From positions 16,807,218 through 16,871,217 of the forward strand of contig OZ020514.1 in the NCBI GenBank assembly GCA_963971425.1: a stretch of 64,000 nt of DNA. The letters run 5' to 3'. Positions 16,403-49,360 of this stretch are shown piece after piece. The position numbers and the translations under genes were made by a program. Source of the DNA: Bryoerythrophyllum caledonicum. Its lineage: Eukaryota > Streptophyta > Bryopsida > Pottiales > Pottiaceae. Numbering within the stretch: position 1 is the stretch's first letter; each line of letters starts with the position of its first letter. The notes beneath the pieces were generated by a model that saw only the letters and a list, made by a program, of their open reading frames with translations, did not search any database and was not told the origin of the DNA.

Positions 16403-16703
16403 TTAGGCAGCCGCACATGAGGGAAATGAGCCGGCGTACGCCGGCACCTATGGATGACTTCCGTCGAGGTCGACGAGGCCAGTTGGCTGTGCGCCGAAAA
16501 CTAAGCCATATCCCAGAAGCCGCAAAATATCACAGCCGGCTGACAGGACCGCTCAGCCAGGTGACTTGTAGGGCCTTTCAATGTACAAAAAATTCAACTA
16601 CCATGAAAACCACCGTGATAACCACCGTGAACAATACAAATACAAGCAAGTTTGTTGCTCTCTTCCTCTTCCTCTTCAGTCCTCTCCTCCCTCCTCTCCT
16701 CAG

Positions 16704-17534
16704 ATGGAGCAAGGCTTGGGGTTCCTTGGATCCATGGTACTTGCAAATGGACCTCCTCTTCTTCTCTCAACTTCTTCTCCTTCCTCCGTGGTGCCAAGTA
16801 CACCTCCACCTCACACTCTCTCACCAGCATCTCCTGTAGATGATAGGATTTGGGGGATTCCTGCAACAAACTATCTCATTGATTTATGCAGAGAACGTTT
16901 GGGAGCATGCGGAGACAACACATTTCGCAAGAAGGACTGGGAGCGGATTCATGCCAAGCTTGTGGATCACTTTCCAAGCGAGTCGGGACGGCAATGGGTG
17001 CACGTGAGGGACAAGTGGCAGAAGCTGCGAACACATTACTACAAAGAAAAGCGGCTCCAGACATCGGGTGTGAATCGCGAATCAAGGTTTGTATTCTATC
17101 AGCAGCTCGATCAAATATTTTCTGAGTGTGCAAAGGCAAACGGTGTACCTGGAGGGATGGACAGCGGAGTTGAGGCTGAGGGAACGCGACAGCAACCAGT
17201 TAATCTTGAGCAAGGAGAAGATAGAGGTGTTGAAGACGATGTTGCTACGGAGGCTCCACCGTCTCCACGCACTCGTGCAAGTTCACTACCTGGATGTCGT
17301 GGAGCACCAAATAAGAGGAGAAAGATCTCAGGGGATATGGCTGCTTCCCTCGATCGATTATGTGAAGCGACTGCCAGGATTGAGGAGTTAAAGGTTGAAA
17401 CAGCCATAAAACTTCATGCAGAGAATCGGGCAATGGAGTTAGAGATGTTCAAGTTGTCTCAAGCCACTCAAGAGCGTATGGCTGTGTTATTTGCCTCGGT
17501 GATTCAAAACCGTGGTAATACTTCTAATTCTTAA
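16704..17534 (+). CDS. Myb/SANT-like protein of PIF/Harbinger
   Basis: This is the accessory protein that binds element ends and helps bring the transposase into the nucleus in PIF/Harbinger transposons. The frame is open from 16581, but I chose the ATG at 16704 because the stretch before it is a CT-rich leader ending TCCTCAG. The trihelix-like domain spans about residues 45-130: aromatic residues in WERIHAKLVD, WVHVRDKWQKLR and the closing FVFYQQLDQIF. A basic patch (NKRRK) near residue 203 could be a nuclear signal. The last 60 residues form an amphipathic helix. It converges on the transposase gene with about 195 bp between the stops. No break is seen. Confidence 0.85.
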   Translation: MEQGLGFLGSMVLANGPPLLLSTSSPSSVVPSTPPPHTLSPASPVDDRIWGIPATNYLIDLCRERLGACGDNTFRKKDWERIHAKLVDHFPSESGRQWVHVRDKWQKLRTHYYKEKRLQTSGVNRESRFVFYQQLDQIFSECAKANGVPGGMDSGVEAEGTRQQPVNLEQGEDRGVEDDVATEAPPSPRTRASSLPGCRGAPNKRRKISGDMAASLDRLCEATARIEELKVETAIKLHAENRAMELEMFKLSQATQERMAVLFASVIQNRGNTSNS

Positions 17535-17729
17535 ATGTTGGCTTATGATTTGCCAAGTTCTGGTAATGCATGGTTTTTAAACTTGATTTTACATGGAAGT
17601 CAGTGATTTTTTATTCTCAACACTCACATACTTTGTGATTCAAACACTTGTTCAAATTCAATTCAAACATGTCATCCTCATGGCAATTTTTGATACAGTA
17701 CCATGAAAAACATACAATTTAAAAAAAAA

Positions 17730-19043
17730 CTATAAAGCTGGATTTCTTGCCAGCCAGTTCTCAAATAATGCTTGCCTCATTAACTCTCCAGCTATCTTGC
17801 CGGCATCTCCATCACCAGGCGGCAAGCGAATGCGACCTCTATGGATCCCTACAAATGGATCTATCTGCATTCTTCTATCTCTTGGAATGGGCACCTTCTC
17901 CTTGTGGAATTCACAGAAATTGTGCAATGCAACACACGCCAGAGTTACCATTGCACATTTATTCACCGCCATATTGAATGCCTTGAGAATTCGCCAACGA
18001 TTCTTTAAAGCTGCAAATGCATTCTCGATACAAACTCTACCTGAGTTCATGGAGGAATCGAACCGCTTCTGGTCACTAAGATCGGGATTGCCAGGCTTGA
18101 AATTTTTTAGCAAGTATGGTCTAATCGGATAGGCAGAGTCCCCAAGTAGGTATGGTCTGACCTCCTCACCACCTAGCTGAATGAGTGGCTCACGCAAAAT
18201 TTCCCTAGTCCGCAATTGATTGTACAAAGATGACCATTGAAATTGACCACCATCATGCACACCACCAGGCTGCCCTGCACAGACATTCCAAAATATTCTA
18301 TCCATATCGCACACTGCTTGAACATTTATACTATGGAATTTTTTCCTACAAAAGAAATCAGATGGATATGGAGTGTAACGTCTACTAGGCTTCTCAAGCA
18401 AGGGGATGTGAGTTCCATCAATCGATCCACATATATTTGGTAGACCTGTGACATCTCTAAACTTCTCAATTATCTCTTGAAGCCTATGTCCAGTAGGTGT
18501 ATGAACGTATCTCTCAAAAAGTCCATGTCGACTGGCTAAAACTTTGCAAATCACCAATGTGTATTTTCTAATGGTAGATTCTCCAACACCATACATTTTG
18601 CTCATAGTACTACATGAAAGTCCATGGGCAAGACGGTGGACCACTAGACAAATTTGTTTACGGATAGATATGGGAGCTCGTACAAAGTTTATCGCCCTAG
18701 GTCGCAAAAATGGTGTCAATTCACTAACCAAATGATTAAATGCCAGAAACGTCATTCTATAAACTTGCCAATACTTATAATCCAACATAGTAGGTGAAGT
18801 GTGCCAAACGTCACCTTCCACAACGTCGTAGTACACATATTGCCTTGGCTCAACCCACCACATTCTGCTAGAAAAACGACGCATCCATGAGCATGCAGCA
18901 ACAATGGGCATATATCTTGCTCCAACAGACGCCTCCAACATCTCCAAATACTCTTGCTTACGACCTCTCCGTGGTGGTGACAATGCTAACAAGACCACCA
19001 TGAATGCAAAAAAAACAAGTAAAGGTTCTTCTTCCACCGCCAT
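17730..19043 (-). CDS. PIF/Harbinger transposase, 437 aa
   Basis: DDE-type nuclease of the PIF/Harbinger superfamily (DDE_4-like). The catalytic motifs are visible: first Asp in GSIDGTHIPL (about residue 213), second in GDSAYPIRPY (about 301), and the Glu in ENAFAALKNRW (about 340). The N-terminal part has a helix-turn-helix-like region with GVGESTIRKYT. Length is usual for the family and the frame is intact from Met 19043 to the stop. A truncated relative lies at 58550-59204 with the same N-terminus style (MAVEE). It pairs with the Myb/SANT-like gene in the same element. Confidence 0.92.
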   Translation of the reverse strand: MAVEEEPLLVFFAFMVVLLALSPPRRGRKQEYLEMLEASVGARYMPIVAACSWMRRFSSRMWWVEPRQYVYYDVVEGDVWHTSPTMLDYKYWQVYRMTFLAFNHLVSELTPFLRPRAINFVRAPISIRKQICLVVHRLAHGLSCSTMSKMYGVGESTIRKYTLVICKVLASRHGLFERYVHTPTGHRLQEIIEKFRDVTGLPNICGSIDGTHIPLLEKPSRRYTPYPSDFFCRKKFHSINVQAVCDMDRIFWNVCAGQPGGVHDGGQFQWSSLYNQLRTREILREPLIQLGGEEVRPYLLGDSAYPIRPYLLKNFKPGNPDLSDQKRFDSSMNSGRVCIENAFAALKNRWRILKAFNMAVNKCAMVTLACVALHNFCEFHKEKVPIPRDRRMQIDPFVGIHRGRIRLPPGDGDAGKIAGELMRQALFENWLARNPAL

Positions 19044-19380: not shown

Positions 19381-19725
19381 GGGACGACCAAAATCTGGAT
19401 AATGGAAGAATGTAAAATGCTCCGACGTGATGATAAAATATTACTTTCATCCAAGTTTTTGTGAAGGTGTTGTCAATGAGTGCATGTACCACATGCACTA
19501 TGTATACCCTTTATAGAGTGTGTAACTTTTTCTCTAAACAAGAAAAAGTTTGGGACATGGAACTCAACGTAGTGTATTTTAGAAACTTCTAGCTTTAGCT
19601 CTAATTCTGAATTTGAGTCATTAAAATGATGTTTTTTTGAAATTGAGTCCAACTAATGAAATGAAGTTTATTGAATCTAGTTTTCAATCCAATTTGAAAA
19701 TTTGAAAAATACATAAAATTGAGTA
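19381..19725 (+). repeat. Left TIR of the giant element, main block
   Basis: This is the reverse complement of about 36958-37300 with few differences. Landmarks include AATGGAAGAATGTAAAATGC, ATGCACTATGTATACCC and CAACGTAGTGTATTTTAGAA. It is cut at 19725 by a MITE and continues at about 20245. Confidence 0.9.
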
Positions 19726-20242
19726 TGTTATTGCAATTTGAACTTTGGGCCTATTACCATGGATGACCAATTTTCTGATTTTAGCTAAACACGGAAGTTT
19801 CATCTACACCACAAGTTTCAACACAATAATGTACACCTTCAAGTGAAATTATCATATTTTTTACGCAAAATTTGTATATGATATGAATATTCTTCAATTT
19901 TTCTTTAGAAAATAACAATAATTTAAATTTTCACAAATAAATCTTGTGTTTTTTGTGACATGAACAAAACATGTGGTGTCATCTCTGAAAAATTAAATAA
20001 AAATATTTCCACTTATATTTGATGAAAAATTAGGACACATTGTAGAATGAAAATCGGGATTGATGCCACGGTCATAGCTCGTCTTTTAAAAGCCATCATT
20101 GGTGTAGTCGTTGAAGACATTTTGTTTTTTCCCAAAAGTAGCAAAATAACTACACAGTATTTCAACTAAACTTCCGTGTATATCTTAAATTAGAAAATTG
20201 GTCATCCATAATAGTAGGCCCAAAGTTTAAATTGCAATAACA
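19726..20242. mobile_element. 517-bp TA-flanked MITE
   Basis: This non-coding element starts TGTTATTGCAATTT and ends in the inverted form GCAATAACA, bordered by TA on both sides. The terminal inverted repeats run for about 80 bp, including GGATGACCAATTTTCT and ACACGGAAGTTT in both arms. Size, TA duplication and lack of coding sequence fit a Tc1/mariner-derived (Stowaway-like) MITE. The uninterrupted right TIR of the giant element shows the empty site (GAGTATAACGG), which proves the insertion. Confidence 0.85.
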
Positions 20243-21513
20243 TACAACGGATATTTAACTAAATATTGACAAATCGATCAATTATGGACCAAAAAATAAC
20301 TTAGACTCGGATTTCATTTCCTATATCATACAAAAAAACAAGAAAATATGGGCTAAATCCTTAACATATACATTCGAAATTGCGTGCTACCAAACATTGT
20401 CCCGCACAAAACTATAATAACTGTCTCATATCATAATAAAGTCTCTTCAAAACCACTAGAATCCTTAACTTTAAGCGTTGGCTGTCAATCCACAAAATCT
20501 AAAGATTCTCCAAAAACCTACAGATTCTCCGTAGACCCTAAATACTCTCCCAGACCCTAAATATTCCCCTTGAACCCTAAAGAATCTCCATATGCCCTAA
20601 GGATTCTCGAAGACAGAATTAAAGGTCTGGGGCCAGCCGACAAAGAAAGAGGAGGAATCAGAATCACCGAATATTTTTATAGAAGAAATCTCATGATTAA
20701 AAAAGGTGAGTAAAAAAACTCCAATGATCAAACAAATTATTCAAAAAATGGGATGAAAAATAAGGTGATAATTTGGAAATTAAACCAAAAATATGAAGCA
20801 ATGAGAGGTGGTGAACATGAAAACGAAGTACATGGTTTGTCCTACGAGTCCAGACGTCGGCCGGCAGCCGACGGACAATAGAGACTTTAGTGGACAACAA
20901 ACAAAGAAGGCTCCCGGAAGGCAGCTCGCAAAAATAGTAGTAGATGGCAGAATGATCTCCTGAACAATTAGGGAAACACTAAGAGAGTAAAGGCCCGAGT
21001 AAAAAGGGCAAACAGATGATCTCCAAACTCGAAATAAAAAAAGGTTGTCGGCTGGTAGCCGACAAGAAGAACTTCAATGATAAAGAATGAAATCCTGCCA
21101 ACAGAATGTTGTGAAAAAAACATCCATCAAGTAAGTCCGGCAAAGTGGGTAAAGCAATACAAGTGATCAATCTGAAGACAGAAACAAAGAAGAGGAAGTG
21201 GGTTTCATAAATAGATGACTGCCAATTGGCAACACGTAAAATATTGAACATACATAAACGACCATCAAGAGAATACATTGATAACAAAATTCTATTACAC
21301 ACAGCATTCTACAAAGCACAACATCAAAACAGAAAGGTTAAACAAGCTTGACTAAAATAAAGTACATCAAGGATAAGATCCGAATAGAGCACAATATTTT
21401 AGTCCAAATAAATGTTACATTTGGAGGTGCCCCATAGATGGCAGCAGTCTGGAAAATCGATTAGAGAAAAGCAACTACAGAGGACTATTTACAAGCTGAA
21501 CTACACTTTACAT
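20243..21513. other. Non-coding interior of the giant element
   Basis: The TIR match runs on to about 20268. Around 20533-20600 the word CCCTAAA or CCCTAAG recurs four times at about 20-bp steps. Two copies of the 17-bp palindrome lie at 20856 and 21047. The segment is probably 3' flank of the leftward genes. I see no gene. Confidence 0.5.
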
Positions 21514-21948
21514 CTACCAGTTCTTGCGCCATGCAGGAGCATACATATCGTAGTCCACGTCCGAACCGGTGTCGCATCCGGTTTCAAATGGATTACCCGA
21601 AAAGCTTGAAAACGAATCGCTGTCAAAGTTTCCGGTAGCCCACAAGTCCACCTCGTCCGATCCATTGCAGTGGAGGTCATCTTCATCAGAGCATCCCAAC
21701 TGTGCAACGACATGTTGACCGCCATCGACGTCTGAATCGACATCGTGGTTGGACTCCTCTTCGTCATCTTCCTCGTTCCAATTCTCCTCATGAACATTAG
21801 TCGACGGAATAGTGCTATCCACAGAGTTTTCAGACACTATACTATTCTCAGACTCTGCCTCCCTGGCAACTCTGGCCTCATTTGTCTCCCTCTCCTCCCT
21901 TTCCTCTCTCGCTCTCCTGACAAGCGCCATACTACGAGTCTCAACCAT
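21514..21948 (-). CDS. Small acidic protein of the giant element
   Basis: From the ATG at 21948 this encodes about 144 residues. It starts MVETRSMAL, then has a charged helix with repeated Arg-Glu pairs (residues about 10-35), then a long Glu/Asp/Ser-rich tail. An acceptor-like CCAG stands at 21957, so it may instead be the last exon of the transposase gene just upstream (minus strand). The intervening about 490 bp hold two palindrome copies (22424 and 22256). No known family is recognised. Acidic partners of this type can act as chromatin or importin contacts, but that is speculation. Confidence 0.5.
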   Translation of the reverse strand: MVETRSMALVRRAREEREERETNEARVAREAESENSIVSENSVDSTIPSTNVHEENWNEEDDEEESNHDVDSDVDGGQHVVAQLGCSDEDDLHCNGSDEVDLWATGNFDSDSFSSFSGNPFETGCDTGSDVDYDMYAPAWRKNW

Positions 21949-22453
21949 GTCGTCGGCTGGAAACAGAATCAGACTAAGAAAAGAAGAAATCACTCCAACC
22001 GGTGGCAAATATAAACCAAGATACACAAAAACAACTTAACACAATGAGATACTTGACATACAATGAATCCGTGAATTTATAATTCTCTTGCCGCAAATTG
22101 CGCACCAACAATAATTACTCATGTACAACTACCCATCTACTCGTCATAATGATACCGAGCAACACACGTGCCACAGATTTAAGTCTTTCCTTTACACGCT
22201 CGAAGACTTTGACCACAAAAAATGGATCGAACTGCATATGCATAATATAGAGGTTGTCAGGTGGTAGCCGACAAGAAAAACACCAACTACTCAGATTGAG
22301 ATCATAACAGATGAGTTACTTGAAAAATGTATCAATGGCCGAAAGACCGGCAAATACTACTGTTCCAGGCAACATTCAAATTAATATATGATGAACGAAT
22401 TACATTGCAGAAAACATCAACCCGTCGGTTGGTAGCCGACCAAGAAAATGATA

Positions 22454-25400
22454 TCATTCGCTACTGCCATGAACAGAGATGCCACCAGCCTCCAAACAAG
22501 CCATTGCAGCGCTCGCTGCTTCAGGTGGGATACGGTGGGTCATTGGAGGCCCACGCTTATTATGAGAAGGGTAGCGATGCGAGAAGAGAACGATACTACA
22601 GTTCTGAACATCTGGATCCCTGTGCTCACGCTCCCACCGCCTATTCCAGCACTCCTTCCCGATGATCTTCTTAGAATCTTTCTTGGTCGTGAGTGGAACC
22701 CACCATTCAACCTTAAAGTTTCCGTAGGAATCCCCAGGACTGTGGTTGACGCACTCCAGCACCCGACCCATCCACACAGGAACGTAATGCCTAGTGCAAG
22801 GTCGGCAGAGTACAAAATCACCAAGGAGAACATCACGAAATGGATTGAAGGATAATTTCGGACGGCTCATCTCGGGGCCACAGAATGGGTAAGCGTCAGG
22901 CTCATCTTCTGGTGTGACATCCAAGCCGGAAATAATTACATCCGGTTGTGACGCTGCGCGAGCATGATCACGTATCCAGTCTGATTTCGGCCAGAATCCT
23001 TCTTGCAGACAGTCGGGGTTTGGCGGGAGAGGACCGGATATTAGTTGTAAAAGACGCTCCCAATAATCAATGAAAGGTTCCATATCCGCGGCATATCGTT
23101 TGTCTCGAGCCATGCCCGTCCTCCAGATCAATATACTTTGCAATATCGTTCTTGATAAAGGACTGCTTCTCGCTGTTTCCAGTCGCTCTTGCAACCTCCT
23201 TCTCCTTGTTTCGCTTTGATTCGTTGACATGAACGTCACCCCAAACCGGCTTGAAGGGTATTGGTTTTGGATCACCAATCGGAAGGTTCGGATTCCCGAA
23301 TTGATCCGTCGTCTACATCTTCACAGGCTTATCTGAATGCAATATACAAAAAAGTTAGACAAAGACAAGAAAGCAATGAAATGGAAGGAATGAAGGACAA
23401 AAGAAGCACAAAGGTAAAATCTGTCGGCTGGCAGCCGACAAATAAGTAACAAGAACATCGGCAGAAAATGAATGCAAACAGAACGATGACAAAAACAAAT
23501 GAGCCTCACCAGGAAGGAGCCATGATGAATCCGTCGCACTTCTCTTGTATCTCATGACCGGCCATCCCGCATCTTCACCTTCCTCTTCAACGTAAAATTT
23601 GAAAAGGTGTATCTCACCAAGGCCAACAAGCTTATTCTTGCCTTCGTGATGGTAATCAGCAATGTAACTTTTGAAATCAACAACCTCTTGAACAAGTTCA
23701 GGAATAAAGGCTAGTGTCTTCTAAGAGTCCATGAAAGATTTCATGAGGTCAGCTAAGTAGTAAATGTTTTTCCGTTTGATGAATTTTGAAAGGTAACTAA
23801 AATGCGCGTCAATGTCCTCATGAGTGTCGCCGACAATCAAGAATCCCACAGTCACTTCCTTAAAAATTTGTCTGGCTGTGAGAAGCGAACAGAAGGCCAT
23901 GACGAACCTGTTCTTGTTATCCTTTGCAGAGTTATCAAGTTGGAGATACAGTTTCCGAGGAAGCTTAACTTCCTGTTGAGCGAGCGAAGAAACTGGAAGG
24001 GGATCGCCCCTAGCTTCTGGAATCGACGAACTACATCTAGATTTACCGCGGAGTAAAGATTCAAAGAACGAATTCTGAGGTGGACATGTAAAAAACTGCT
24101 TTGACTCACGCACAGGTCGGCGCTCCAATGCCCAAAGAACACGGCAAATGGACGAAATTGTGGAATTGGAGTCCCCAGGCCATAAGGACTTAGAGTAATG
24201 CGCATACGCACCGTCGCCGTGACCGTGAGTAAGCATGCCAGTACATGAAATAGGAATCTGTCCAAGACCTGCGGTCGCTTTCGTAATCCGCTGCATTCTT
24301 GGAATGGCCGTCTTTGAAGTGTCCATCTTGTCGTGAATAATGCAGAGAAACTCAGACCGGTAATTAATGGACTGAGATGTCCATCCGGAGTACACATTAC
24401 GGCAAGCACTTTGGTAGTTGAGATGCCTTGCCCGATCATCATGCAGTGCTTGCCATTCGTCGGACCCGCGAGGATATTTGGCAAGAAACTCAACCAGATA
24501 GTCACACTCGGTACATCTCGAAAAGTTGCTACCCACGGCCTTCACTTCAACGTTCCGAAAAAACTTCCGTTTCAATCGACTAACAGCAGATTGCGAAATC
24601 GGCTTGACACAACATTCAGAGTTCACCGGGAATCGAAAGAGATAGCGATAAAGACTAATGAAGTAGAATTAATGAGATGCAAAAATAGACATGCATCGGC
24701 TGCCAGCCGACACAATGGGATATATGAGCAAGTCAAATGTACAAGTAGTAATAATGTTAAACCATACCAGGTTGGACATATCACGGAGATGATTCCAGTC
24801 CATCGCAGCAGGAAGAACCATCAGAGATGCAACCCTCTTGTTGCCGATGACTCGAAACTCATTTGGCATGTGGTCTGCATTATCGTTGATGATTCTGGAA
24901 ATGGTCCCACGAGCCTGAACAGTCTGAGACCTGGGGCGCAGAATTCCCGCATTTCCATGACCACCATTTACGCGTCCGTTCAATGAATCCGATTTATACT
25001 TGTAGTATGCAGACTTGGAGACGCCATGAATGCGAAACCACGCAACTTCGCAAACGTCGACACCATGCAGAGTTATGAAGGGTTTCCGGAAGCCAGGAAT
25101 ATCGTGGAGCTGGCCTTGAACAGCGTACGCAGTTTCACGCCGTTGCTCAAAGCTTGAGGAGTAGAATTGCTGGCGGATTCTACAAGTGTCCGCCCAAAGA
25201 AAAATCTGACAGCATCGTCTCGAACAACACTTTTTCGAACTAACAAGTTGACAAGAATCTCTGGACTGGAGGCGTCGAAAGTTGGTAACAGAAACATCGC
25301 ACTTCTGCTTAAGCTTCCGTTTCATACCTCTGTATGGATCCTTGGCCACCTCCTCAAGCCCGTCACCTTTACATGTGGCTTGATTGTGCTCAGAGCAGTA

Positions 25401-26570
25401 GATGAGGCACTCTGACAGCAGTGGACCACCTTCAAGGCGCGTGTGCGAAATCTTCCAGTACAGCGTTGTCATCTGAAGATTCTCATGCTCAGAAACAAAG
25501 AGTACGCCAACGTCAGTGTCACCCAAAACATCCACATCACATGCTTCATGCGGGAGACAAACTTGAATCATCGCCCGCCCAACTAAAGCGAGATTATTGT
25601 CGAGCAAATGGCAGTACTTGTTCCTCCATTGTGGTCGATCCGGATACTGAAATTGATCACAATTGACCCCTGAAGGGAAGGTTGCTTCAATCGGTGGTTG
25701 ATCAGTTGAACGTCGGCTGCCAGTCGACGGAACGTCCTCATATCGCTCTCGACATGCTTCGGAGTTGCTTCCCGAATCCACATTGAGTCCTGTGGACACT
25801 TGAAAAGTGCTGTCATCATAGATCCTGTCCCTGCGATCGTCGTCATCCGAAGCACCTGACATCTCACTCACTGAATATTCATCAGGTGAGGAGTATCCAG
25901 TGTCGTCACCGACACGCATGGGGCGAACTCGATAGCCACTCCAGAGAACAAGGTTACCCACCGTGTCACCAAGCGTGATCACCTCAGGGAGCTCACAGTA
26001 TGCGGTATGAGTGAGGAACTTAACATTTACTATCTGGACTCGGACAACCAGAAAAAAACTGTGAGGAATTAGGAACCCTTCCCACGATCCCTTTGGTGAG
26101 CACTCGTCGATTAGTCCAATGCGTGCACAACAGTTGTGACCCATGACATCAACAAGGAGGGCAACCTTCATTCCGTCACGAAGGTTCAGAAACGACAGAA
26201 CTGGTTTGATATCCTCAACGGGTTGCAATATGGATTCCGGTTGATCCTCATTGAGTTCGTCGATGACAACGAATGGACGTAGGTCAGCTGCATCCCAATC
26301 GATTGACCGGCCAGAGCATTCGCGAAGCATGGATAGTCCATCAATTGGGAACGGAATGGGCATTTCCATCGAATCGGAAACATCGATTACCTTGACACGA
26401 ATAATCCATGGATCCCTCAGAATGATTTTTTGAACAACTGCACGTTGAGCATAATAGAGACCTGAGTGAGTTAGGGCGACTTGAACACCTTTGCGTGGCT
26501 TCCATCGACCTGATTTTCCGTTCTTCATAAACGATAAAATGGGTCCACAGTCCATGATCCAGAATGCCAA
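22454..26570 (-). CDS. DUF7869-type transposase candidate, spliced
   Basis: Exons by eye: 26570-24763, 24654-23510, 23332 to about 22454. Introns 24762-24655 and 23509-23333 each contain one palindrome. The first exon starts directly after CAG (26571), so a 5' exon lies upstream. Its end holds a Cys-rich cluster (KCCSRRCCQ), then VCEVAWFRIHGVSKSAYY and a GGHGNAG segment. The second exon has CTECD, a HDKMD motif, LQLDNSAKDNKN and VGFLIVGDTHEDIDAHFS, the conserved core of DUF7869, thought to be a DDE/RNase H-like nuclease. The last part has FVLCRPCTR and VPVWMGRVLE, a BAH-like module often at the C-terminus of these proteins. Breaks: TAG at 23721-23723 and a frame change near 23080. It is the best candidate for the enzyme that moves the element. 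Confidence 0.7.
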
Positions 26571-27830
26571 CTGGGCTTCGTCGGCTGGGAGCCGACAAAA
26601 TTTGTCGAAGATATAAACCCATGGATCCAGCTCGAGAACGGCTCACAAATAGGGAGTGTGTGAATGCATGTGTCACATAGTCAAAGCTGATGCATTAGGT
26701 TTTTGGATTAGGGTTCAAGATTAGGGTTTCGAGTTTTGGGTGAACTTCCAAAGGATTTCAGTGCTTTTGCATGAGACTTGGGAATCTGTGATTCGGAAAG
26801 AGCATGTGCGTGATTTCTTGGAATGCAGATACAAACTGGGAAGGTGCACTTTTGTACACACATTCGGTTTCCAGTGTTTAGGGTATCAAGACTTCAGGTA
26901 GTCAGCTGATCAACGCAGAATCAGCATTAAGGTGAGGCAACAAGGTCGACTTACACAGTATCAAATTGCATCTCAAAATCTAGAAAGCTACAGGACAATA
27001 CACTAATTTTACTGAACATGGAATCTGAGCTCTAACCGGAGAAAGCATTGAACTTAATTGAACCAGACATGATCGCCTACACCATAAATGAACGCCTACT
27101 TCCAGAAAGTGCTTGTCATCGCGCAACAGGTAGAATGCTTGAATGCTAAATACAGCCAGTGCAGAAAAGTGCAAAGCGGACGATCTAAGCTGAGATAATA
27201 ACTATACTACACGAAAGCGTGTGAGAGCAGGTGCAATAAAGAGAAGCAGACGAGAAATGACAGAGGATACGGAGTAGATGCGTTGATATCCCTCTCTCAA
27301 CTGAACAATCTGCTCGAAAGTCGATTTCGAAATTTCGCGCCAGAAACACCTTCGTGGATTCGCGCCCAGAAATTTGCGCGCATTCATTCTTGGACTTCAA
27401 ATTCAAATTCGAATGGAATCGAATGTGAAATTTCAACACGAAACTTCCTTGCGAAATTCGAAAAGATTTTTTCAGAGAATCAAAAACAAAATATAAATGA
27501 CGAGGAAGAATGAGTCGAATCTGAAAGCCAAACTAAAAAGAAATTTCAAAAAATCAAAGAATATATAAAAGAGACATTTAAGAAAATCTAAATTAGAATA
27601 TTAAAAAGAAAGTTACATCAGATCAAAAAAATGACAAGTAAATCTGAATATTGGAAAATTATAAAATAAATTTAAATGAAATTGAAAATGCCAACTGTAA
27701 ATCTAGCCGGTTGGATGAAAACTGATAGACTACTGAGACTATCAGACAATCAGACTACCGAGACGCTTCGATGGCCTTTCGATTAAGGACGAAAGTTGAT
27801 CGAACGGTCGTGGCGTTTAGATTTGAGGAC
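26571..27830. promoter_or_regulatory. Divergent intergenic region of the giant element
   Basis: This separates the leftward and rightward gene sets and should carry both promoters and the missing 5' exon of the transposase gene. Around 26700-26735 there are two TTAGGGTT words (telo-box-like), a motif found in plant promoters. A palindrome copy stands at 26580-26596, 9 bp before the acceptor of the first transposase exon. The stretch 27430-27700 is AT-rich and lacks coding character. Confidence 0.45.
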
Positions 27831-27831
27831 G

Positions 27832-27838
27832 TATAAAA
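27832..27838 (+). promoter_or_regulatory. TATA box of the rightward gene set
   Basis: TATAAAA follows a GC-richer stretch and precedes the proposed first ATG (28084) by about 250 bp. It is the only clear TATA box in the right position for rightward transcription. Confidence 0.5.
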
Positions 27839-28083
27839 GGTCAGGCTTCCACCAAACCGGGTCATTTGCAATCTACTCTTCCTGGTTTAGTTAAGCAGCT
27901 TCAGGAATAGGTTGTGAGACTTTTCCTTGTTTAGGACTGAATCTGTCCGCGGCCAGCCGATGTAGGGATTCCGGAAGTTGAAGAAAGCAATGGAGGAGCA
28001 CCCACCAGGCGGAACGAGGCGGAGGAGCTTGAGCGCTAGAGTCAAAGTGACCAGCTGACGGGTTTTTTCCAGCAGCCGACAAA

Positions 28084-28945
28084 ATGACGTGAGTCGATAG
28101 GTATAAGTCTCTTTCACCGTCGGGTGCCAGCCGACGGCAAGCTGTATATATTTTGGATTTTTCAATTCTTAGTTCCATTGAATGAAGTAATGCTATATAT
28201 TGTAGCAATTGTGCTCTGTTCCAATGGTAATCTTTAGTGTCGGGTGCCAGCCGACGACGTTCTACTCGAATGTGGCTCACGAGAAATGCTCGCTATTTTG
28301 TTGCGCAGGTTGAGTAAGCTGAAGTGGCTGTTTGGGCCTTCTATTAGTGAGGACGAGGCAGTCTGGCTCGATAATCAAGTTCCAAATGCCACATTTGAGG
28401 CTCGTCCTGAATTGACCAAATGGGGCATTACCTGGACACTAGGGGAGGTGACTGAAATGGGAATCAACGGGAAGCACTTGGGCAAGAGTTTTCTTGGTAG
28501 AAACCTTGTCGCCGTGATGGATATTATGGAAGATCCTGAGGACGACAACTATATTCGACTCCTACTAAAGGTGAAGGTTCGAGTTGCCAACAACGATCCT
28601 GAGTCCTATGCTGTTCGAATTCGCTGGGCCCTCTGCTCACAGGAGCTCTGCACGTCAGCACAAGAGGTGGGCATGCAATTTACCGACTTGCACCCAGAGA
28701 GCCGCGTGGAATTGGTCGAATGCTTTAAGCAGGCGAAGGACCAGAGAGTGACACTCAATGGCGGATCTGAGGGAAATGGCAGACGTAAAGCTGCAAAGAA
28801 GCCTAGGGCCTCAAAAAAGGCTAGCAGTTCTACGCTGACTATTGTTGTTGTGGCACCTGATCCGGCTCCAAAGAAGCGGGCGTCGAAGAAAACTCCAAAG
28901 GAGAAGACGGTGGCCGAAGCGTTGGTATGTCTGAACAACCTCTAA
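28084..28945 (+). CDS. Basic-tailed protein, first rightward gene
   Basis: The proposed start is ATG 28084, with a donor AC|GTGAGT at 28089 and acceptor GCGCAG at 28307. The intron carries two palindromes (28119, 28239) and splicing restores phase. The product of about 215 residues has a globular N-terminal 140 residues without a family I recognise. A Lys/Ser/Pro tail follows with repeated KKPRASKKA-like and KKRASKK-like units, which looks like a nuclear, DNA-binding tail. The stop is at 28943-28945. A donor-like GTATGT at 28925 and the open frame just downstream suggest it may instead continue into the next gene through a very short intron (34 nt, ending 28958) or a frame slip. Confidence 0.5.
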
Positions 28946-31900
28946 TACCAATAGTAAGGAGGTCGAAGAGATGTACAACACGGTCGAGAAAGGATTAGGG
29001 CGTTGTTATCCGTTTGGGCAGCAGTTTCTGCCAGTAAAGATTCATTCGTCAAAGATCCACCTTGCGCCCCATGGAATGGTCTACCGTGAAATCGTCGAAA
29101 GGCGCCTCGACCAGCTTCGAATCATCTACATAGCTGTTGGTCCTTGGCGGGCAAAACCGCCACTATACTGCGTTTCTCTGCGTGCTCCACCAGGTTCTGC
29201 TCAAGATGGCAAGGAGTTAAAAGGTATGGAACTTCTTCGCAGGAGCGTGCCGAAAATGATGGAGGACCAAGTTCATTTCGGCGGTCAGACGTACAAGTGG
29301 TATGATGAACCAAATTGTCATTGGTTCATCATTGGTGGGCAACACACATATACTGTGTGTAAGGAGCTCGGAGAGATGGACGACCCCGAATTGTCGAGAG
29401 CTAAGTATTTCATGGAGTGGGACATTATCGTACTCTGGTCGAATACTCAAGACGACCTGGTGAAAATTTCGAATCTCCTGAACGTTGATGTTGCCGAGAA
29501 GAAAGCGGAAGAAACCTACGTTCCGCAGCTTCGTAGAATGAGGGAGAGGTGGATTGAGCTTGGTCGCGTTGACAAGCTTCAAGACCATGCTGCCTGGAAG
29601 GTACTTTTAGTGCTCACTTGTTTGTTCATGCTCCTCTTGTTGTTTGGCTTCAGTGTATCTGACCGTCGGCTGGCAGCCGACGCCCTTACATGTGTTGGAA
29701 CCTGACTCTATTCATCGTGATTGTTGCAGGATTTTTGCAAGAATCACCTCACTGTGATTATGAGTAAGGCTAAAGACGTGGAGACCCTAAAGCTACCCGT
29801 TGTTTTCGTTCCTGATGATCTCTACAACAAGTGGCAAGTGGTTTTCACCGCTTGGCAGATGGGTCAATTAATTGGGGAGAATGGTCAACCTCCTCTTCAG
29901 ATTCCACGAATGCCGCAGCGGGAGATCATGCACACGGACCTTTCGTACCTCGTCAACCTGCGTGATGAGGACTCCATGAAGTTGGCTGAGGCGATTCTGG
30001 ATAAGAAGGTGTATATTAAGGTGAACGCAGGAAAGGAGAAAGGGGCTATTGGTGTGTCGATGAAGTCGTGGGTAAAGGATGTAAAGATGAACTACATCAT
30101 CAAAAACGAATTGATGTTGAAATACCGCGATTATCCACTGAAGAAGCCTGGAGAGTCCGCATATGTCCCTTGGGCGTATGAGCAGTTTACGTTGCTTGCC
30201 GCTGAGAAGGGTATCAACGATGAAACCCTTCATAACATCCGACGCGAATTGGAGCAGTCTGATGCTGGCTCAACATTCTTGAAAGGGAGGAACAACGGGA
30301 TTACTCCAACGACCAACGAGGCCCCGCCTGAGTTCTGGTCGGCAGTAAAGAAGTACGCCGTTCTTTGTGATGAGGATCTGGTTGATGAGTTTGCTATTCG
30401 CTTTGATGTTCGTGTTGCGAAGGGGCTTGTCAAACTGGTGAAGAAGATTGACGACAAAGGAGACGTGCAACTCGAGAAGGGAGCTCGCGAGATGTTCGTT
30501 GTATTTGGATTTGACGAAGCCCGGGAATCGATCTTTATAGGCAGAGACAGGCTCAAAGCAGTTGTGCAGAGGGTGCTGCGAGTGAGTGATGATGAACAGT
30601 TTGAGATTTTCGCTCCTACAATTCTTATTACCGACGACAACTCCAGTTTCCAAATCGAGTCGGAATGTCGCAGTTCGACAGGAGTATGTGCCGTCCACAC
30701 AATTCGCTACCTCTCTGACAGTAGCCGGAAGTTCAAGGTGTTGGCCATGCACGACAGACCTCTGGCTAACGTCGGAATCCTCTACAACAAACCTAGTGAT
30801 GAGCGTGAAAGATTCACCCAGTTCAAGAAGGTGACGGGACTGACAAAGCCTCTTAATCCTGTCTATGACGACGCTGCTTCGCCCTCGTCCGAGAGCTGGT
30901 GTGGAGATGTGTGCAATCCATGCATGGGTTTGCTCACCGCAATATTGAGTCCCACCTTAGCGGTGAAGGAATCAAACCTGACAGTCTTCAATGCCTGGGG
31001 TGGTGGGAATGTCAGAGCCTTGGCCTTGGTTGGTTTCCTTAACCCTTGTCGTGCTTGCTCTTTTTTTTGTCCTGCATTTACCAATACTTGTCATTGCATG
31101 TCGTCGGCTGGCAGCCGACAGTTTTTTGCAGCGGGTTTCTGACTTATCTTCTTGTATTTTTTCTCAGTGGGCGAAAGCAACTGTGATTGAGTTTGTGCGC
31201 GAGGAAGCTGACATTGCTGTCGCAAAGGAGCGCGTTAAGAACATGTCGTTTCTCCCGCAGCCGTCTGGTGTTTCTAATCGAATCACCTGGCCTCACCCGT
31301 CGGATTTGACATTTGTTGTTACCCAGCTTGGAGAGACTTCTGAGCCACCGCCAAAGGTTGTGGAAGACGATGAATTTTCTCGTCTTGCTCGGAAGGTTGT
31401 GGATGAGTTTGTGGTTCAATCTATCCAAGCATCCATGTCACGGAATTCGTTGGATGTGTATGATTTATCGGACGACGAGACTTCTGATCGTGATGTCGGG
31501 ATAAATGAAGAGAAGACCAATCTTGACCATCTGATTACCCATATCATCCAAGGACCTCAGTCATCCATGCCGGTTGTTTTGCCTACAATAGTGGAAGAGT
31601 CGATGCCTTCCGGGTCTGTGGTCATCAATTTGGCCGAGCAACCGCAAGTCGAAACAGTTGTCTGGACTGGCGTCTCATCTGTAGCGGGTACTAATGCAAA
31701 GACTGTCCATCCTCCGAATCTCACAACGGACCCTGCTACCCGAAGATCGATTACTCGAGATTCTCGAATTGTCCCGGCGGGACCTAAGAATGAAGTTCCC
31801 GTAATTTCAACGGGTACTGGCGTCCCTCTTTGAAGCCCTAAAGCAAAGAAGGCAAAGACTACTAGCAAAACTTCAGGGAAGAAGCGGGCGACGTCACCAT

Positions 31901-32050
31901 CGGCAAAGACGAAGGGTTCTACTGCAAAGCGTGGTTCAAGAAGCAATTCTTCTTCCAGACCGAACACCCCAATGACCCCCGATGGCGAAGATCTCCCAAA
32001 CGAGTCCCTGTCTCCTGTCGTAGATCGCGCAAGCAATCCATTTGGAGGTT
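28935..32050 (+). CDS. Large unknown protein of the giant element
   Basis: Exons: about 28935-29600, 29730-31010, 31168-32047. The two introns (29601-29729 and 31011-31167) keep phase and each holds one perfect palindrome (29665, 31103). The first exon contains a GGQHTYTVCKEL segment, recalling the GGxHR motif of ParB/Srx-like domains. That likeness is weak. The second exon is a long globular part with no family I know. The third becomes acidic, then ends in a Lys/Ser-rich tail. A TGA at 31831-31833 interrupts the tail while the frame runs on to 32050, where a donor-like GAG|GTTAGT at 32048 could splice to the first HAD-like domain at 32321. One long protein or several are both possible. Confidence 0.5.
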
Positions 32051-32320
32051 AGTTTTATAGTAAGCTTACTATAGGTTCAGAATTTAGTGACCTAGCGTGC
32101 AACTAATTTTCTGAAATATTTATAAACCCATCACGATTCTGTGCTGGGGTACACTGCTAATTTTATGTTTGATTTTCTGAATCATTCTCTGACCTTTTCT
32201 AAACTTCTGAGTCGGTTCGTCGGCTGGCAGCCGACCAGGGATCTAATGTCCTTTAATGGTCTTTCTTTAAATCAACTGATCAGGGGACTAGTACTCCTGT
32301 ACTTGCTGCTTCTGGTGCAG

Positions 32321-33254
32321 TGGAGCAGGTTGGTGCTGATCGAGAATCCGAAGCGTTTGAACACATGGTTCAGGTGGGTTTGACACCCCTTAAAGATTAC
32401 TTCCTTGTATTTGAATTGAATGGTTTGGTTCTCACGCATGGCGCTGACCGTGTTACAAAGTTCCGGCCTCACATCCAAGAATTTCTCAAGTACTGTGTTG
32501 ATAATTTTACTGTTGTGATTTGGAGTTCTGAAAGTCCGGCTGGAGTGGGGACTCTTCTTAACGACCTGCAAGATCAGTTCAAAGTCATTCTTCAAAGAAT
32601 CAAACATGTCTTCGATAATACCCTTTGCGACGTAGCTCGGTATTCTATCGATGGCAAGAAGTTCTACCTCAAGAGGCTATCAACATTATTTCTTAGTTAT
32701 GGGGATTTGATAGGAAAAGGAGCCAATAGCGCCAACACCCTCCTGATTGACGTTCATCCGTACTCGAACGTCAAGAATTCTCCATATAACGCCATTCATC
32801 CCATACCCTACACTCTCACTTCAACTGGACTGCCAAAGAGAGTAGGCAAGCCCTCTCGGTGATAACTTCCTTTCTGAGTGCGATGAAGGAAGTGGGCTGG
32901 ACTGTACCCTTGTACACCTCAACTGTGGACCACCTTATCCTGGTGAAGAAGTTGGCCTTGCCATTTCAAAGTGACAAGCATCGTCGTCCTCGTCCTCAAG
33001 TTGCGAATCCGGAGTTGAATGATGGGCTCTCAGCCCGTGTAGACATGGTCTTGCCTGATGCTGCCGTCGTCTCTGATGTGCCTTTCGGCCGCAGGGTGAC
33101 CTTTCTTGAACCTAAGCCTGTCGACCCTTATAAGACTCGGCTGGTAGCCGTCCCGGGGAACCCTCGGTTGCTTCCTGGAGAACCCGAATGGGAGCAGTTT
33201 GTTTGGTCCTTTCCAAGCGAGAAGCGTCCAAGGTCACTTCCAAGTAGACGTTAG
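32321..33254 (+). CDS. FCP1/HAD-like domain 1, catalytic Asp lost
   Basis: The acceptor GGTGCAG at 32320 restores phase from the donor at 32048; the intron holds a palindrome at 32219. The fold is recognised from FRPHIQEFLKYC, TVVIWSSESP, a later TLLIDVHPYSN and NSPYNAIHP, the order seen in FCP1/SCP phosphatases that act on the RNA polymerase II tail. In motif I the two aspartates of DxDx(T/V) are replaced (FELNGLV), and the second Asp of the late DD pair is Val, so phosphatase activity is unlikely. A one-base shift near 32850 separates the domain from its C-terminal part (32859-33254). The stop is at 33252, 9 bp before a palindrome; a polyadenylation-like AATAAA lies at 33381. Confidence 0.6.
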
Positions 33255-33465
33255 ATCAATCCGTCGGCTCCCAGCCGACGCTTAAATTCATTACATTTCT
33301 TTTCATGACATTCGTCATGACTATGAAATTATATTTTTTGTTCGCACATAGATATTATCTTTGTGTGAATGTTTACCCCTAATAAACATTGATTGTAATT
33401 ATCTCAAGTTCCTATCTACTTGATGGGTTCTTAATTCATGCATCGTCATCCATTCATTTCTTCAG

Positions 33466-34179
33466 GTTGACTCTGGAGTTGGCGACGCAAGTGAGTGGTC
33501 TTTATCGCTCCGCGCCGGACCATCTGAGAAGGTCAATAAGTACTTCCTTGTCTTATCCTTGAACAATCTCTTAATGGCGCAAGGTGTTGGAGCCGACAGG
33601 AAATGACATACCATCTTTCGGCCGATGCTGAAAGAGTTTCTCGAGTTCTGTGTTTCCAACTTCACTGTGGCAGTTTGGAGTGACCAATCCAGCTCTTTTC
33701 TGAAGTTACAAATGATAGCTCTCGAGGGACAGTGTAGCATCGTTAGAGAAATTAGACATCGTTTCCACAACAGTTTCTGCGACACAGCGGCGACATCGTT
33801 CAACGGTCGGACTCTATATGTTCGAAGGCTTTCTACTTTGTTTTTGCATCCGTCCGGCCTGTTAGGCACTGGAGCAAATAGCCTAAACACTCTTCTTCTC
33901 GACTGCTGTCGTTTTGCTAATGTTCGGAACAGTCCCCTCAATGTCATGCATCCCCTGACGTTCGATCTGACTTCGAAGGAGACCCTGAAGAATGCCGTTC
34001 TTCCTACTGTTGTTCAGTTCCTTTCCGGTTTGGTTTCTTCGGGATTGCATGTTCCTGAGTATGTTTGTGAGAAAATCGATTCGACCGGATATCCTAGACT
34101 CTGGCCCGATGACCCAAAGTGGGCGGAATACGTCGAAGCTTATCCCAGCTCGATGCGTCTTAGTATTTCTTCCTCTTAG
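33466..34179 (+). CDS. FCP1/HAD-like domain 2, catalytic Asp lost
   Basis: The exon begins after TTCTTCAG (33465). Motif I reads LSLNNLL, again without aspartates; FRPMLKEFLEFC, VAVWSDQ, TLLLDCCRFAN and NSPLNVMHP follow. A TGA at 33604-33606 interrupts the frame between motif I and the next helix. The C-terminal part resembles that of domain 1 (YPRLWPDDPKW against NPRLLPGEPEW), showing tandem duplication of the whole unit. The stop at 34177 is followed 10 bp later by a palindrome (34189) and then AATAAA at 34266. These could be a 3' end or lie in an intron leading to domain 3. Confidence 0.55.
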
Positions 34180-34347
34180 GATTGTAGCATCGGTTGGCAG
34201 CCGACGCCCTCGAATGTTCATTTTGTCAGACCTTTCTTGACTTGCTGTAAATACAATTTTTTGGTAATAAAGCTCTTTTGTTTTTTGAACAATCATTTGT
34301 GATTGGTGCCTCACTGAATCTATGCATGTCTGCTTTATTGACTTCAG

Positions 34348-35547
34348 ATGCAAAATTTATTCCTTGAAGTCAGAGTTCCTGGGGATATTTCGCACCAATT
34401 TGCAGTTGCGACTGATCTAGGAGACGTTGACTTGACGGATATCTCCCCGCGCTTCAGCCGCTTTCACTCACTTTTGGGAGATTACGAGAGACTGGAGCAT
34501 CAAGAATTACCAGTTGCGGCAAGCGGTCTTGGATTTCATGTCGATTCTGGCCAATGTTCACTTCAGCGTGTCGGGGAGCCTGCAGTTGTAATCAAACCTG
34601 CTGTCGTAGTTGAGATCGTGTCACCGATGCGTCCTGGGAATGTCGCTGTCACTTCTGGCTCCACCCGCTGTCACATCGAGGTGGTAGACACCGACGATTT
34701 AGTTTCGGATGGTGCTTGTCCTATCGGTGTCAATGTCGTCGGCTCCCAGCCGACACCTTCGTCTGCTTCAGTTCCAACAGCCGACCTCAGCTCCGATTTG
34801 GTTCACAGGAACATTCAGGTGGGTCCTCCAAGCTACTACCTCGTCCTTGAACTAAGGAGGCTTCTCTTCGCCGAAAGTTTTGTTTGTCGTGGCAATGCTA
34901 AGAAGAAGAGCTTTTATCAGAAATCCAAGCCTGGGCTTCGAGAGTTCCTTGCTTTTTGCCAGTCGTCCTTTTCGTTGGCCTTTTGGTCAACCGATAATTC
35001 CAGAGCAATCCATCGACACATGGATCACTTGTTCGAAGTTTTCCCTGACTTGCGAAAGAACACAAAAGTGTTGGGCACTACCTACTGTGATTCCTCTGTG
35101 GCCAAGAATCCCTCGACTTTAGCTGCGCCACTGCTGAAGAGGTTAGCCCGAATGTTTTTTGATAGACGCTTTTTAATCGGGCTTGATGCAAATGAGCGGA
35201 ACACGCTTCTCATTGATCCCTTTCCTCTCCAAAATATCCTCAATAGCCCCTATAATGCTGTTCATCCTTCTCTATTTAAGTATAATATTCCGGAGATCTT
35301 AGTTCCCAGGATGTAGCCTTATCTATTGAGTGCGTTAGTTCCTTTTCTCTCGGGACTTTTGAAGTCTCGAGTCAATGTTCAGGAGTACTGCCATGCAAAT
35401 TGGGAATTTGGAACTTCTCGACTTTACCCTGGGTCGTTTCAGCATCAAAAGTACAGGGAGGTCATCTATCCCGAGGCCTTGGGTTTCGACGCTCCATACT
35501 GTCCCGATGAATTGGAATCGAAGCTGTTAATAACCTACTCGAACTAA
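34348..35547 (+). CDS. FCP1/HAD-like domain 3 with long N-terminal linker
   Basis: The exon starts with ATG directly after TTGACTTCAG (34347). About 150 residues of linker without recognisable fold come first, with an in-frame palindrome at 34738 coding VVGSQPT. The HAD-like part follows: motif I is LELRRLL (aspartates lost), then LREFLAFC, LAFWSTDN, TLLIDPFPLQN and NSPYNAVHP. A TAG at 35314-35316 interrupts the frame, which continues to 35547. The next intron-like stretch has a palindrome at 35760. Confidence 0.55.
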
Positions 35548-35843
35548 GTATTCATCTATTCTCGAATGGGCTTTTTCGAGTTTCTATTCCTCTTTATTGC
35601 TACTGACAATCAGAAACTAATCCTTCTTTCCTTGTAATTTCTTAATTTTTGTGATTTTATGATATATTTTCAAATTCCAGCTTTCTTGTGTGTATGTATT
35701 GCCTTTATCACATGTCTGTGCTTCATCTTTGATGATGGTCATGTGCTTTGTTATGCCCCGTCGGCTGGCAGCCGACGGTACAGTGTTTTCATCTTTCCTT
35801 AATATTCGGCATCATGACGATTGTCTTCTTTTTGATTTTTCAG

Positions 35844-36520
35844 GGGTCATCCTTTTATTTCAAATGCTTATATGGAACCCCTTCACCGTATCGAAAGTGT
35901 GTTGTCCTCTGTGTCAATGGGCTCCTTTGCTTTGTAAAACCGCGTGTGCCAATTTCTGGTTCTTGCACTCGTGAGAATATTGTTCACCGGCTGGGCCTGA
36001 AGAAACTTTTTGATATGTTGCTCCCTTGCTTTAACGTCGCGCTTTGGTCAACGTTGCCGATGGAGGAGTTACAACTTGTCTTGCGGCATATTCTTCCGAT
36101 TGGTGTTATGGATAGGCTGTCATTTGTCTATAGCAGACGTGACTTAGCGCAGAAAAAAAAATTCCTTGGAGTTACAAAACGATGTCTATTCTTTCTAAGA
36201 AGAATCATTCGCGTTCTGTCTGCCTGCCTCATCAAGTTCTGTTCGTGGATGTGAACCCAAGGTCTCTCAGGAAAAATCCCGACAACATTTGTTTTATTCT
36301 CTGGCCGTTTCAGGGTCATTTGAGCCTTCAAGACAATGACCATGTTATTCCTAACGTGGTGACCGACATCCTTCCCTTCATCCATCCGCTCCACAGATTT
36401 TCAAGCGTCCCTGAATATTTGGAGCAAGCACATCGACCTGGTCAGTCTCATTGGGTGGTTTCAAAGGCGCGTCAGTGTGGGCGCACAGTTGTCCGATGGG
36501 ACGAAATTGAATGGTACTAG
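35844..36520 (+). CDS. FCP1/HAD-like domain 4, most diverged
   Basis: The exon begins after GATTTTTCAG (35843). Motif I reads LCVNGLL, so both aspartates are gone; VALWSTLP and, in a shifted frame, VLFVDVNPRSL follow. The frame changes near 36180 by one base close to a run of A. The stop at 36518 is followed 9-10 bp later by a palindrome (36530). A second palindrome at 36736 and AATAAA at 36772 probably mark the transcript end. Confidence 0.5.
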
Positions 36521-36771
36521 GTCTTCTCCTTCGGCTGCCAGCCGATGGTCTTCAAATTAGTTTTTGTCCGTGATTTGAAGGATGCATTTTGTAAAGTTCA
36601 TGAAAGTGAACATTTATGTTGTATAATTTGATTTTGAGGGTTCATGTACGTGTCATTAGTTTCCGTTCAACTTTATTGTAGGATGGTTTTTTCTAGGAAG
36701 TTGTATTTATTTGTTCTCGAGATGTTCACTTTTTGGTTGGCTGCCAACCGACACTGTAATTTGTTCTGATC

Positions 36772-36777
36772 AATAAA
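36772..36777 (+). terminator. Possible polyadenylation signal of rightward genes
   Basis: AATAAA about 250 bp after the last stop codon and 160 bp inside the right TIR. Similar signals stand at 33381 and 34266 after HAD-like domains 1 and 2, so alternative ends are possible. Confidence 0.4.
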
Positions 36778-36934
36778 CGTCTCTTTTTTGCAACTGGTAT
36801 ATGTTATTTTGGGACATCGGATTTGTCGATTGTGTTCTCCTTGCTTTATTACTTTTGGCCTCTGTTGCCCGCCGACTGAGTTTTTTCTCAGTGACTTGTT
36901 TTTGACTCGTTTTTATTTCTCGACTTTGTTTTGT

Positions 36935-37313
36935 CCATATTTAGTTAAATATCCGTTATACTCAATTTTATGTAATTTTCAAATGTTCAAATTGGAGTGA
37001 AAACTAGATTTAATAAACTTCATTTCATTAGTTGGACTCAATTTCAAAAAACATCATTTTAATGACTCAAATTCAAACTTAGAGCTAAATATAGAAGTTT
37101 CTAAAATACACTACGTTGAGTTCCATGTCACAAACATTTTCTTGTTTAGAGAAAAAGTTACACTCTATAAAGGGTATACATAGTGCATGTGGTACATGCA
37201 CTCATTGACAACACCTTCACAAAAACTTGGATGAAAGTAATGTTTTATCATTACGTAGGAGCATTTTACATTCTTCCATTTAACAAATTTTGGTCGCCCT
37301 GACGTTTATGGGT
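36935..37313 (-). repeat. Right TIR of the giant element
   Basis: Reverse complement of the interrupted left TIR. This copy is continuous and shows the empty sites of both the Harbinger transposon and the MITE. It ends GACGTTTATGGGT, followed by TA and then ACCCTTAAACG, a direct copy of the element's own left end. Confidence 0.9.
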
Positions 37314-48964: not shown

Positions 48965-49179
48965 ATGTGATAGTCAACTCCCTACCGTGGTCGAAATTCC
49001 AAGTTGATGGTTTAAAAAAAACCGCAAAGAATCTGGGTACAATAAATGGTCCAAGCCCGATCACCCACCAAACTCACTTTCAGGCCGCAAAGCGACTGAC
49101 ACGTGAGGCCTAAGGAGTGGACTTGGGAGAGAATAAGGACAAAATATCCCCTATTTATATGGTGTAGGGTTCTTTTGCG

Positions 49180-49360
49180 AAGACGTCCCCGCCCTACCTG
49201 GGCTGGGCAGGGACGTCCCCGCCCCTCCCCGGGTAGGGCGGGAACATCTCCGCCCCTGCCCTATTAGGGGCGGGGATGTCTCCGCCTCTGCCCGTATGGG
49301 GCACGGACGTCTCCGCCCCTGCCCGGGGTGGGGGGGAGACGTCCCCGCCCCTGCCCGGGG
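49180..49360. repeat. GC-rich palindrome block B
   Basis: Five or six degenerate copies of the GGCGGGGACGTCYCCGCCCC-type unit in tandem with CTGCCC spacers. It sits between the divergent starts of the kinase-like pseudogene (48964) and the RING-type gene (49529), where promoters would be expected. Confidence 0.85.

Follow-up and report, generated by a model that had tools for sequence, protein, structure and literature searches.

A dispersed palindrome within a single transposon

The stretch of Bryoerythrophyllum caledonicum DNA analysed here (GCA_963971425.1, contig OZ020514.1, positions 16,807,218 to 16,871,217; 64,000 nucleotides, referred to as the window) contains a DNA transposon of ∼17.9 kb (19382-37299), in the body of which a 17-bp palindrome recurs 20 times. 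The element belongs to the DUF7869 kind of transposon, has long terminal inverted repeats (TIRs) and resides in a moss or moss-like plant. The favoured interpretation, to which a probability of about 45% is assigned, is that the palindrome serves as a dimer-bound self-tag of this transposon, with an anti-silencing role analogous to that of the VANC proteins.

The original prediction, made from the sequence without database searches, held that the palindrome GTCGGCTGSCAGCCGAC occurs about twenty times in 16 kb and nowhere else in the window, and that a random 17-mer would not recur. Both statements were borne out. Five exact copies of GTCGGCTGSCAGCCGAC are present, and 22 matches are obtained when up to three mismatches are allowed, every one at 20625-36752; across 100 shuffled versions of the window the mean was 0.03 such matches and the maximum 1. 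Alignment of the sites yielded an improved 17-bp consensus, GTCGGCTNNNAGCCGAC, which at up to two mismatches identifies 20 sites at 20856-36752, all within the transposon (Table 1), and none in the remainder of the window, compared with a mean of 0.02 and a maximum of 1 in 50 shuffles of the element. Chance recurrence of a 17-mer is ruled out by both sets of shuffles. At three mismatches there are four further matches, one of which (16482) lies outside the element. The sites, which average about one per 0.8 kb along the element, are preceded by a pyrimidine in 18 of 20 cases and followed by a purine in 17. They are 73% G+C, with 38 of their 40 CpG dinucleotides intact, whilst the introns and gaps described below are 35% G+C once the palindromes are removed.

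Within the element, the inverted half-sites GTCGGC and GCCGAC form 10 exact pairs, all at 5-bp spacing, and none at any other spacing from 0 to 30, indicating that the pair is a single unit. GCCGAC is also the core of the sites recognised by plant DREB/CBF (AP2) factors, and the element may conceivably have hijacked such host transcription factor sites for stress-induced expression. Indeed, 37 GCCGAC half-sites were counted on both strands, against a mean of 4.96 and a maximum of 9 in shuffles, and those outside palindromes, 10 in number, exceed that maximum. However, the other 27 sit inside palindromes at fixed spacing, and the region between the divergent genes (26597-28118) has no palindrome with up to two mismatches and one match with three (27945); host factor binding is considered quite unlikely as the explanation.

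Location of the palindromes relative to introns and coding sequence

Introns were predicted from the sequence and reading frame, with moss gene models as a further guide in the case of the first transposase intron. All six predicted introns contain one or two palindromes (seven sites in total), as do the three gaps that follow HAD-like domains 1-3 (three sites) and the tail after domain 4. Since each of the HAD domains ends in a stop codon, the gaps may represent introns, spacers or 3' ends. These counts agree with what had been claimed at the outset for both introns and gaps. The introns listed at that stage were largely right, except that those starting at 24655 and 28089 end at 24767 and 28308, respectively; for the intron from 32048 the acceptor, judged by eye, is ambiguous between 32283 and 32319, both of which keep the frame.

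Introns and gaps hold 10 of the 20 sites in 1,716 bp (binomial P 1.4e-5), predicted coding sequence holds three in 11,250 of 15,897 bp (P 3.6e-7), and other DNA taken as non-coding holds seven in 2,931 bp, where the binomial values treat the sites as independent and the boundaries as known. Three of the nine intron or gap intervals were off by one base at one end in this count, with no site's class altered. The coding count becomes four if the transposase open reading frame (ORF), which remains open upstream to 26642, starts far enough upstream to include the 26580 site, and thus 16-17 sites lie outside predicted coding sequence. A strictly intronic signal was rejected because half of the sites fall outside introns and gaps: the location proposed originally stands for six of six introns, but a few exons contain sites too, and others lie shortly downstream of stop codons (four of the six) or elsewhere in flanking DNA. 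The palindrome is, then, mainly a non-coding feature rather than a strictly intronic one.

The claim that the palindrome alone is conserved was upheld in the main. With the palindromes masked, blastn revealed no match at E 0.01 among the nine introns and gaps, and the idea of introns sharing longer homology was discarded; a few sites do, however, share a short flank (∼8 bases downstream at 21047 and 22256, ∼10 at 29665 and 34189). Three introns seemed to share a palindrome-to-acceptor distance of 48 bp, but this recurrence was not retained, since one of the three acceptors is ambiguous.

The main rival explanation is that the palindrome functions as RNA, forming a 7-bp pre-mRNA hairpin that steers splicing, 3'-end formation or export. 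The hairpin of a perfect site has a 3-nt loop and a folding energy of -9.9 kcal/mol, and all seven stem pairs are kept in four sites with a mismatched centre. The occupancy of every predicted intron and gap is in keeping with such a signal, as is the presence of palindromes starting 8, 9, 9 and 13 bp downstream of four of six stop codons; the next palindrome lies 212 bp after the HAD3 stop and about 450 bp after that of the acidic ORF. Conversely, the stem is weakened to -6.5 kcal/mol in the variant GTCGGGTGCCAGCCGAC, present in two copies, some palindromes are located within coding sequence, and the distance from the predicted donor ranges from about 5 to 212 bp. An RNA signal is viewed as doubtful.

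Table 1. Palindromes and other features of the transposon, in window coordinates; mismatches are counted against GTCGGCTNNNAGCCGAC.
Feature	Position	Strand	Remarks
Palindrome	20856..20872		1 mismatch
Palindrome	21047..21063		0 mismatches
Palindrome	22256..22272		2 mismatches
Palindrome, 13 bp past DUF7869 stop codon	22424..22440		1 mismatch
Palindrome, intron 23333-23509	23423..23439		0 mismatches
Palindrome, intron 24655-24767	24695..24711		1 mismatch
Palindrome, DUF7869 coding sequence	25712..25728		1 mismatch
Palindrome, 5' edge of DUF7869 ORF, untranslated or coding depending on start codon	26580..26596		0 mismatches
Palindrome, intron 28089-28308	28119..28135		1 mismatch
Palindrome, intron 28089-28308	28239..28255		1 mismatch
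Palindrome, intron 29601-29729	29665..29681		0 mismatches
Palindrome, intron 31011-31167	31103..31119		0 mismatches
Palindrome, intron starting 32048	32219..32235		0 mismatches
Palindrome-like, coding sequence, may be chance	33136..33152		2 mismatches
Palindrome, 8 bp past HAD1 stop codon	33263..33279		0 mismatches
Palindrome, 9 bp past HAD2 stop codon	34189..34205		2 mismatches
Palindrome, HAD3 open frame	34738..34754		0 mismatches
Palindrome, between HAD3 and HAD4	35760..35776		0 mismatches
Palindrome, 9 bp past HAD4 stop codon	36530..36546		2 mismatches
Palindrome	36736..36752		2 mismatches
Left TIR, outer part, begins GGACGACCAAAAT	19382..19726	+	94-96% complementary to 36958-37299
Nested insert resembling a miniature inverted-repeat transposable element, ~516 bp, 78-bp inverted ends, splits left TIR	19727..20242		Pair 19723-19800 / 20168-20245, 90%
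Left TIR, inner part	20243..20273	+	Pairs with 36930-36960, 94%
Right TIR, 370 bp	36930..37299	-	Inverted-repeat match to left end
Acidic ORF, 170 aa	21514..22026	-	Downstream of transposase gene
DUF7869 gene, probable DDE-type transposase	22454..26570	-	Pfam PF25273, E 1.2e-36
Long plus-strand gene, basic linkers	28244..32048	+	One homologue, P0078, E 2.6e-28
Four tandem HAD/NIF-like domains, stop codon ending each	32284..36520	+	Pfam NIF / by eye

Terminal inverted repeats

The TIRs at the two ends of the element measure about 345-370 bp and are 94-96% identical in blocks. By eye, the borders share TG/TG, 2 bp, and no longer common target-site sequence. Sites bound by the transposase for transposition, like the TNPA motifs of En/Spm but here spread through the body of the element, would offer another explanation of the palindromes, and the TIR ends (GGRCGACC) do, by eye, have a few bases in common with the palindrome half-site. 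However, neither TIR contains a palindrome with up to two mismatches and there is no clustering of sites towards the ends, such that a role in transposition is judged highly improbable.

Palindrome-like peptides in moss relatives

Relatives of the element (designated by P numbers) were compared by means of protein records, containing unspliced intron translations or exon-borne sites. At the first transposase intron, which occupies the same position in the window and in relatives, the Ceratodon protein P0002 has VGGPPT and P0004 has RLPAD, the latter protein also having AGCQPI as noted by eye rather than by script. In one family, 86-96% identical to P0006, all eight copies with the first-intron segment carry the peptide either exactly, as RRSAD or RQSAD (P0007, P0009, P0011 and P0013), or with one residue off (P0006, P0014, P0016 and P0022), although these copies are not independent. 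Thirteen proteins were taken as having the segment, nine of which match; P0008, P0031 and P0050 do not, a match one residue off in P0064 was taken as noise, and in P0031, P0050 and P0064 the segment resembles exon sequence. Relatives have a further intron after MRYK, at a position that differs from that of the window's second intron, and here P0026 has RRFAD exactly while P0028 (VGGPPI), P0012 (RWSAD) and P0014 (RRSTD) are one residue off. P0004 and P0005 lack a second intron at either position. Exon-borne peptides occur at two shared places: P0001 has VGGPPI and IGGPPT, each one residue off, P0003 has VGCPPT twice, and P0002 has VGCPPT at the first.

Judged by the genetic code, the inner base pair is T..A in P0004 and the window and G..C in P0028 and the intron of P0002, with P0026 being compatible with G..C; the pattern is suggestive of covariation. 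Exact peptides were counted over 77 homologues, with 100 shuffles conducted over 78. Frame 1 gave four, all from Ceratodon, against 0.27 expected and at most 2 in shuffles, and is the only frame clear of the shuffled values.

A tiny mobile palindrome inserting within the element, similar to organellar GC clusters or palindromic elements, would be consistent with the large number of near-identical copies, the surroundings of which are mostly unrelated, and with the occupation of introns, spacers and exons alike, as is typical of that class. Set against this are the lack of any site with up to two mismatches elsewhere in the window, the exon-borne peptides of P0001 and P0003 at two shared places, and the apparent change of both arms in relatives, which together make a mobile palindrome improbable.

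A candidate dimer-bound self-tag

The fixed spacing and symmetry of the palindrome, its restriction to one element in the window, its spread, its depletion from coding sequence and its absence from the TIRs point to a dimer-bound tag as opposed to an end-binding site. In such a scheme the two inverted half-sites 5 bp apart would be read by a homodimer of a protein that the element itself most likely encodes, and sites spaced along the element would label its whole body as 'self'. The bound protein would most likely hold the chromatin of the element open against plant silencing, as VANC does for VANDAL elements in Arabidopsis. The absence of coding constraint would explain why sites persist chiefly in introns and untranslated stretches. 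Site and protein would evolve together, giving rise to the different inner base pair in related elements, with one palindrome variant per element family, of which GTCGGCTNNNAGCCGAC and GTCGGCGNNNCGCCGAC would be versions. The original prediction had offered two readings, self-regulation if enrichment were limited to the introns of this element and an intron-linked mobile unit if it were genome-wide, and is supported in part; the confinement of 20 of 20 sites to one transposon within 64 kb and the peptides at shared places in relatives favour a cis-acting tag, but the emphasis on introns was too narrow.

Several observations weigh against the self-tag. Among the element ORFs scanned, no DNA-binding protein for the palindrome was identified, nor was there a Pfam match to the VANC-type family (DUF1985/DUF287), these ORFs being broken or partial. 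None of the 20 sites is covered by a tandem array, the nearest array being at 20489-20608. Since the window copy is broken, selection cannot be demonstrated from it, and the same 17 bp also form a stable RNA hairpin. The single half-sites are slightly more numerous than the largest shuffle total for all half-sites. The comparison with relatives is at the protein level throughout, and not all of it is favourable: 10 of 12 tails at the intron after MRYK have no peptide (most are short, but that of P0010 has 37 residues), the intron-side tail of P0008 also has none, and P0002 has VSSKPME at the second exon-borne place, in contrast to P0001 and P0003, which carry the peptide there. Moreover, VGCPPT in Ceratodon implies an imperfect palindrome with an asymmetric centre. 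Frame 2 gave three exact peptides against 2.38 expected (at most 9 in shuffles), and frame 3 gave eight against 2.68, a number equalled by the largest shuffle; four of the eight are from one family and two (P0074) are at no known intron, so that the weight of the frame-3 matches would lie in their intron positions.

If the palindromes are indeed self-tags, then a second, unrelated type of transposon, this time in bryophytes, would be known to be recognised along its whole body, and sequence-specifically, by its own protein, which would suggest a repeated origin of such codes. Physcomitrium and Ceratodon are workable laboratory plants and both have DUF7869 relatives, and hence the idea is directly testable.

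Comparison with known systems

VANC21 is reported to bind the motif YAGTATTAY within VANDAL21, in its introns and elsewhere in its non-coding DNA, with loss of methylation, and VANC targets differ between related VANDAL families (PMC5735166). The kind of region bound by VANC is reported to be a target of RNA-directed DNA methylation as well (PMC10398659). The present element resembles the Mutator-like VANDAL elements of Arabidopsis in having a short motif enriched in the introns and non-coding parts of one transposable element and differing between families, as seen here within 64 kb (PMC5735166). However, the VANC motif is a 9-bp directional sequence in tandem arrays whereas that described here is a dispersed 17-bp palindrome, and no VANC-like protein was found in the ORFs scanned, the transposase being of the DUF7869 kind. 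Repeated short motifs are also a feature of En/Spm (CACTA) elements, in which the element-encoded protein TNPA reads motifs clustered near the ends; here, by contrast, the TIRs are without sites. The parS sites bound by ParB in bacteria are likewise several dispersed palindromes, and one ORF of the element has, by eye, the motif IIGGQHTYT, but profile and fold comparisons provide no support for a ParB-like protein here.

A literature search on DUF7869 by domain name returned no paper, and a text search with six full palindrome variants returned no match. Papers retrieved for Physcomitrium, palindrome and transposable element did not, by title, concern such tags, and Physcomitrium was unmentioned among the matches listed for VANC and Physcomitrium. 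An element-specific dispersed recognition motif would be of a known kind, on a transposon type for which no publication was found under its domain name. A bolder proposal, namely that this is an undescribed plant transposon family with a dispersed palindromic address, a dimeric element-encoded reader and symmetric change between moss lineages, constituting an anti-silencing code for self and non-self independent of VANC, is regarded as rather unlikely.

Genes of the element and neighbouring features

The DUF7869 match scores 126.5 bits against a curated cut-off of 26, and the protein belongs to the same family (PF25273) as proteins of mosses and liverworts, being 59-60% identical to Physcomitrium and Ceratodon models. 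Its gene, with predicted introns at 24655-24767 and 23333-23509, is broken by an in-frame stop (23721-23723) and frame breaks. The predicted structure of its relative P0005 resembles RNase H/DDE transposases in fold comparison, and the protein is probably a DDE-type transposase. A search of PDB sequences with the DUF7869 profile gave nothing at E 10, and no relatives were confirmed among viral contigs and genome contigs. A scan of viral contigs for the palindrome pattern gave 80 of 100 stretches listed, each with a single palindromic site, and these were taken as background.

The long plus-strand gene has predicted introns at 29601-29729 and 31011-31167, an in-frame stop at 31831-31833 and a probable frame break near 28940. 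The single match to its protein was obtained by scoring the 7,997 candidates that shared most words with it. The motif WFIIGGQHTYT, encoded within 28971-29600 and common to this gene and P0078, appears ParB/DGQHR-like by eye. As a candidate, a ParB-like reader was set aside, the motif having been recognised by eye alone, with searches of Pfam, NCBIfam, PHROGs, PADLOC, PDB sequences and folds giving no support. In the bolder proposal set out above, the protein of this gene might be the reader, perhaps one that loads onto palindromes and spreads from them in the manner of ParB at parS.

Amongst the HAD/NIF-like domains, Pfam NIF matches HAD1 above the cut-off (E 2.3e-11) and HAD3 (4.9e-4) and HAD2 (0.0095) below it, whereas HAD4 has no Pfam match and was recognised by eye alone. 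The FCP1-type catalytic aspartates look replaced in these domains. An acceptor-like AG precedes each of the four, which could represent alternative final exons or distinct cistrons. A protein search with HAD1 gave no match at E 0.001 in a candidate set that excluded proteins much longer than the query.

Just beyond the left end of the element, at 16581-19043, a Myb/SANT ORF adjoins a DDE_Tnp_4 transposase ORF, a pair forming a PIF/Harbinger-like element. Further along the window, two GC-rich tandem arrays ∼5 kb apart (49177-49360 and 54462-54637) are composed of similar 31-32-bp units starting GACGTC(T/C)CCGCCCCT.

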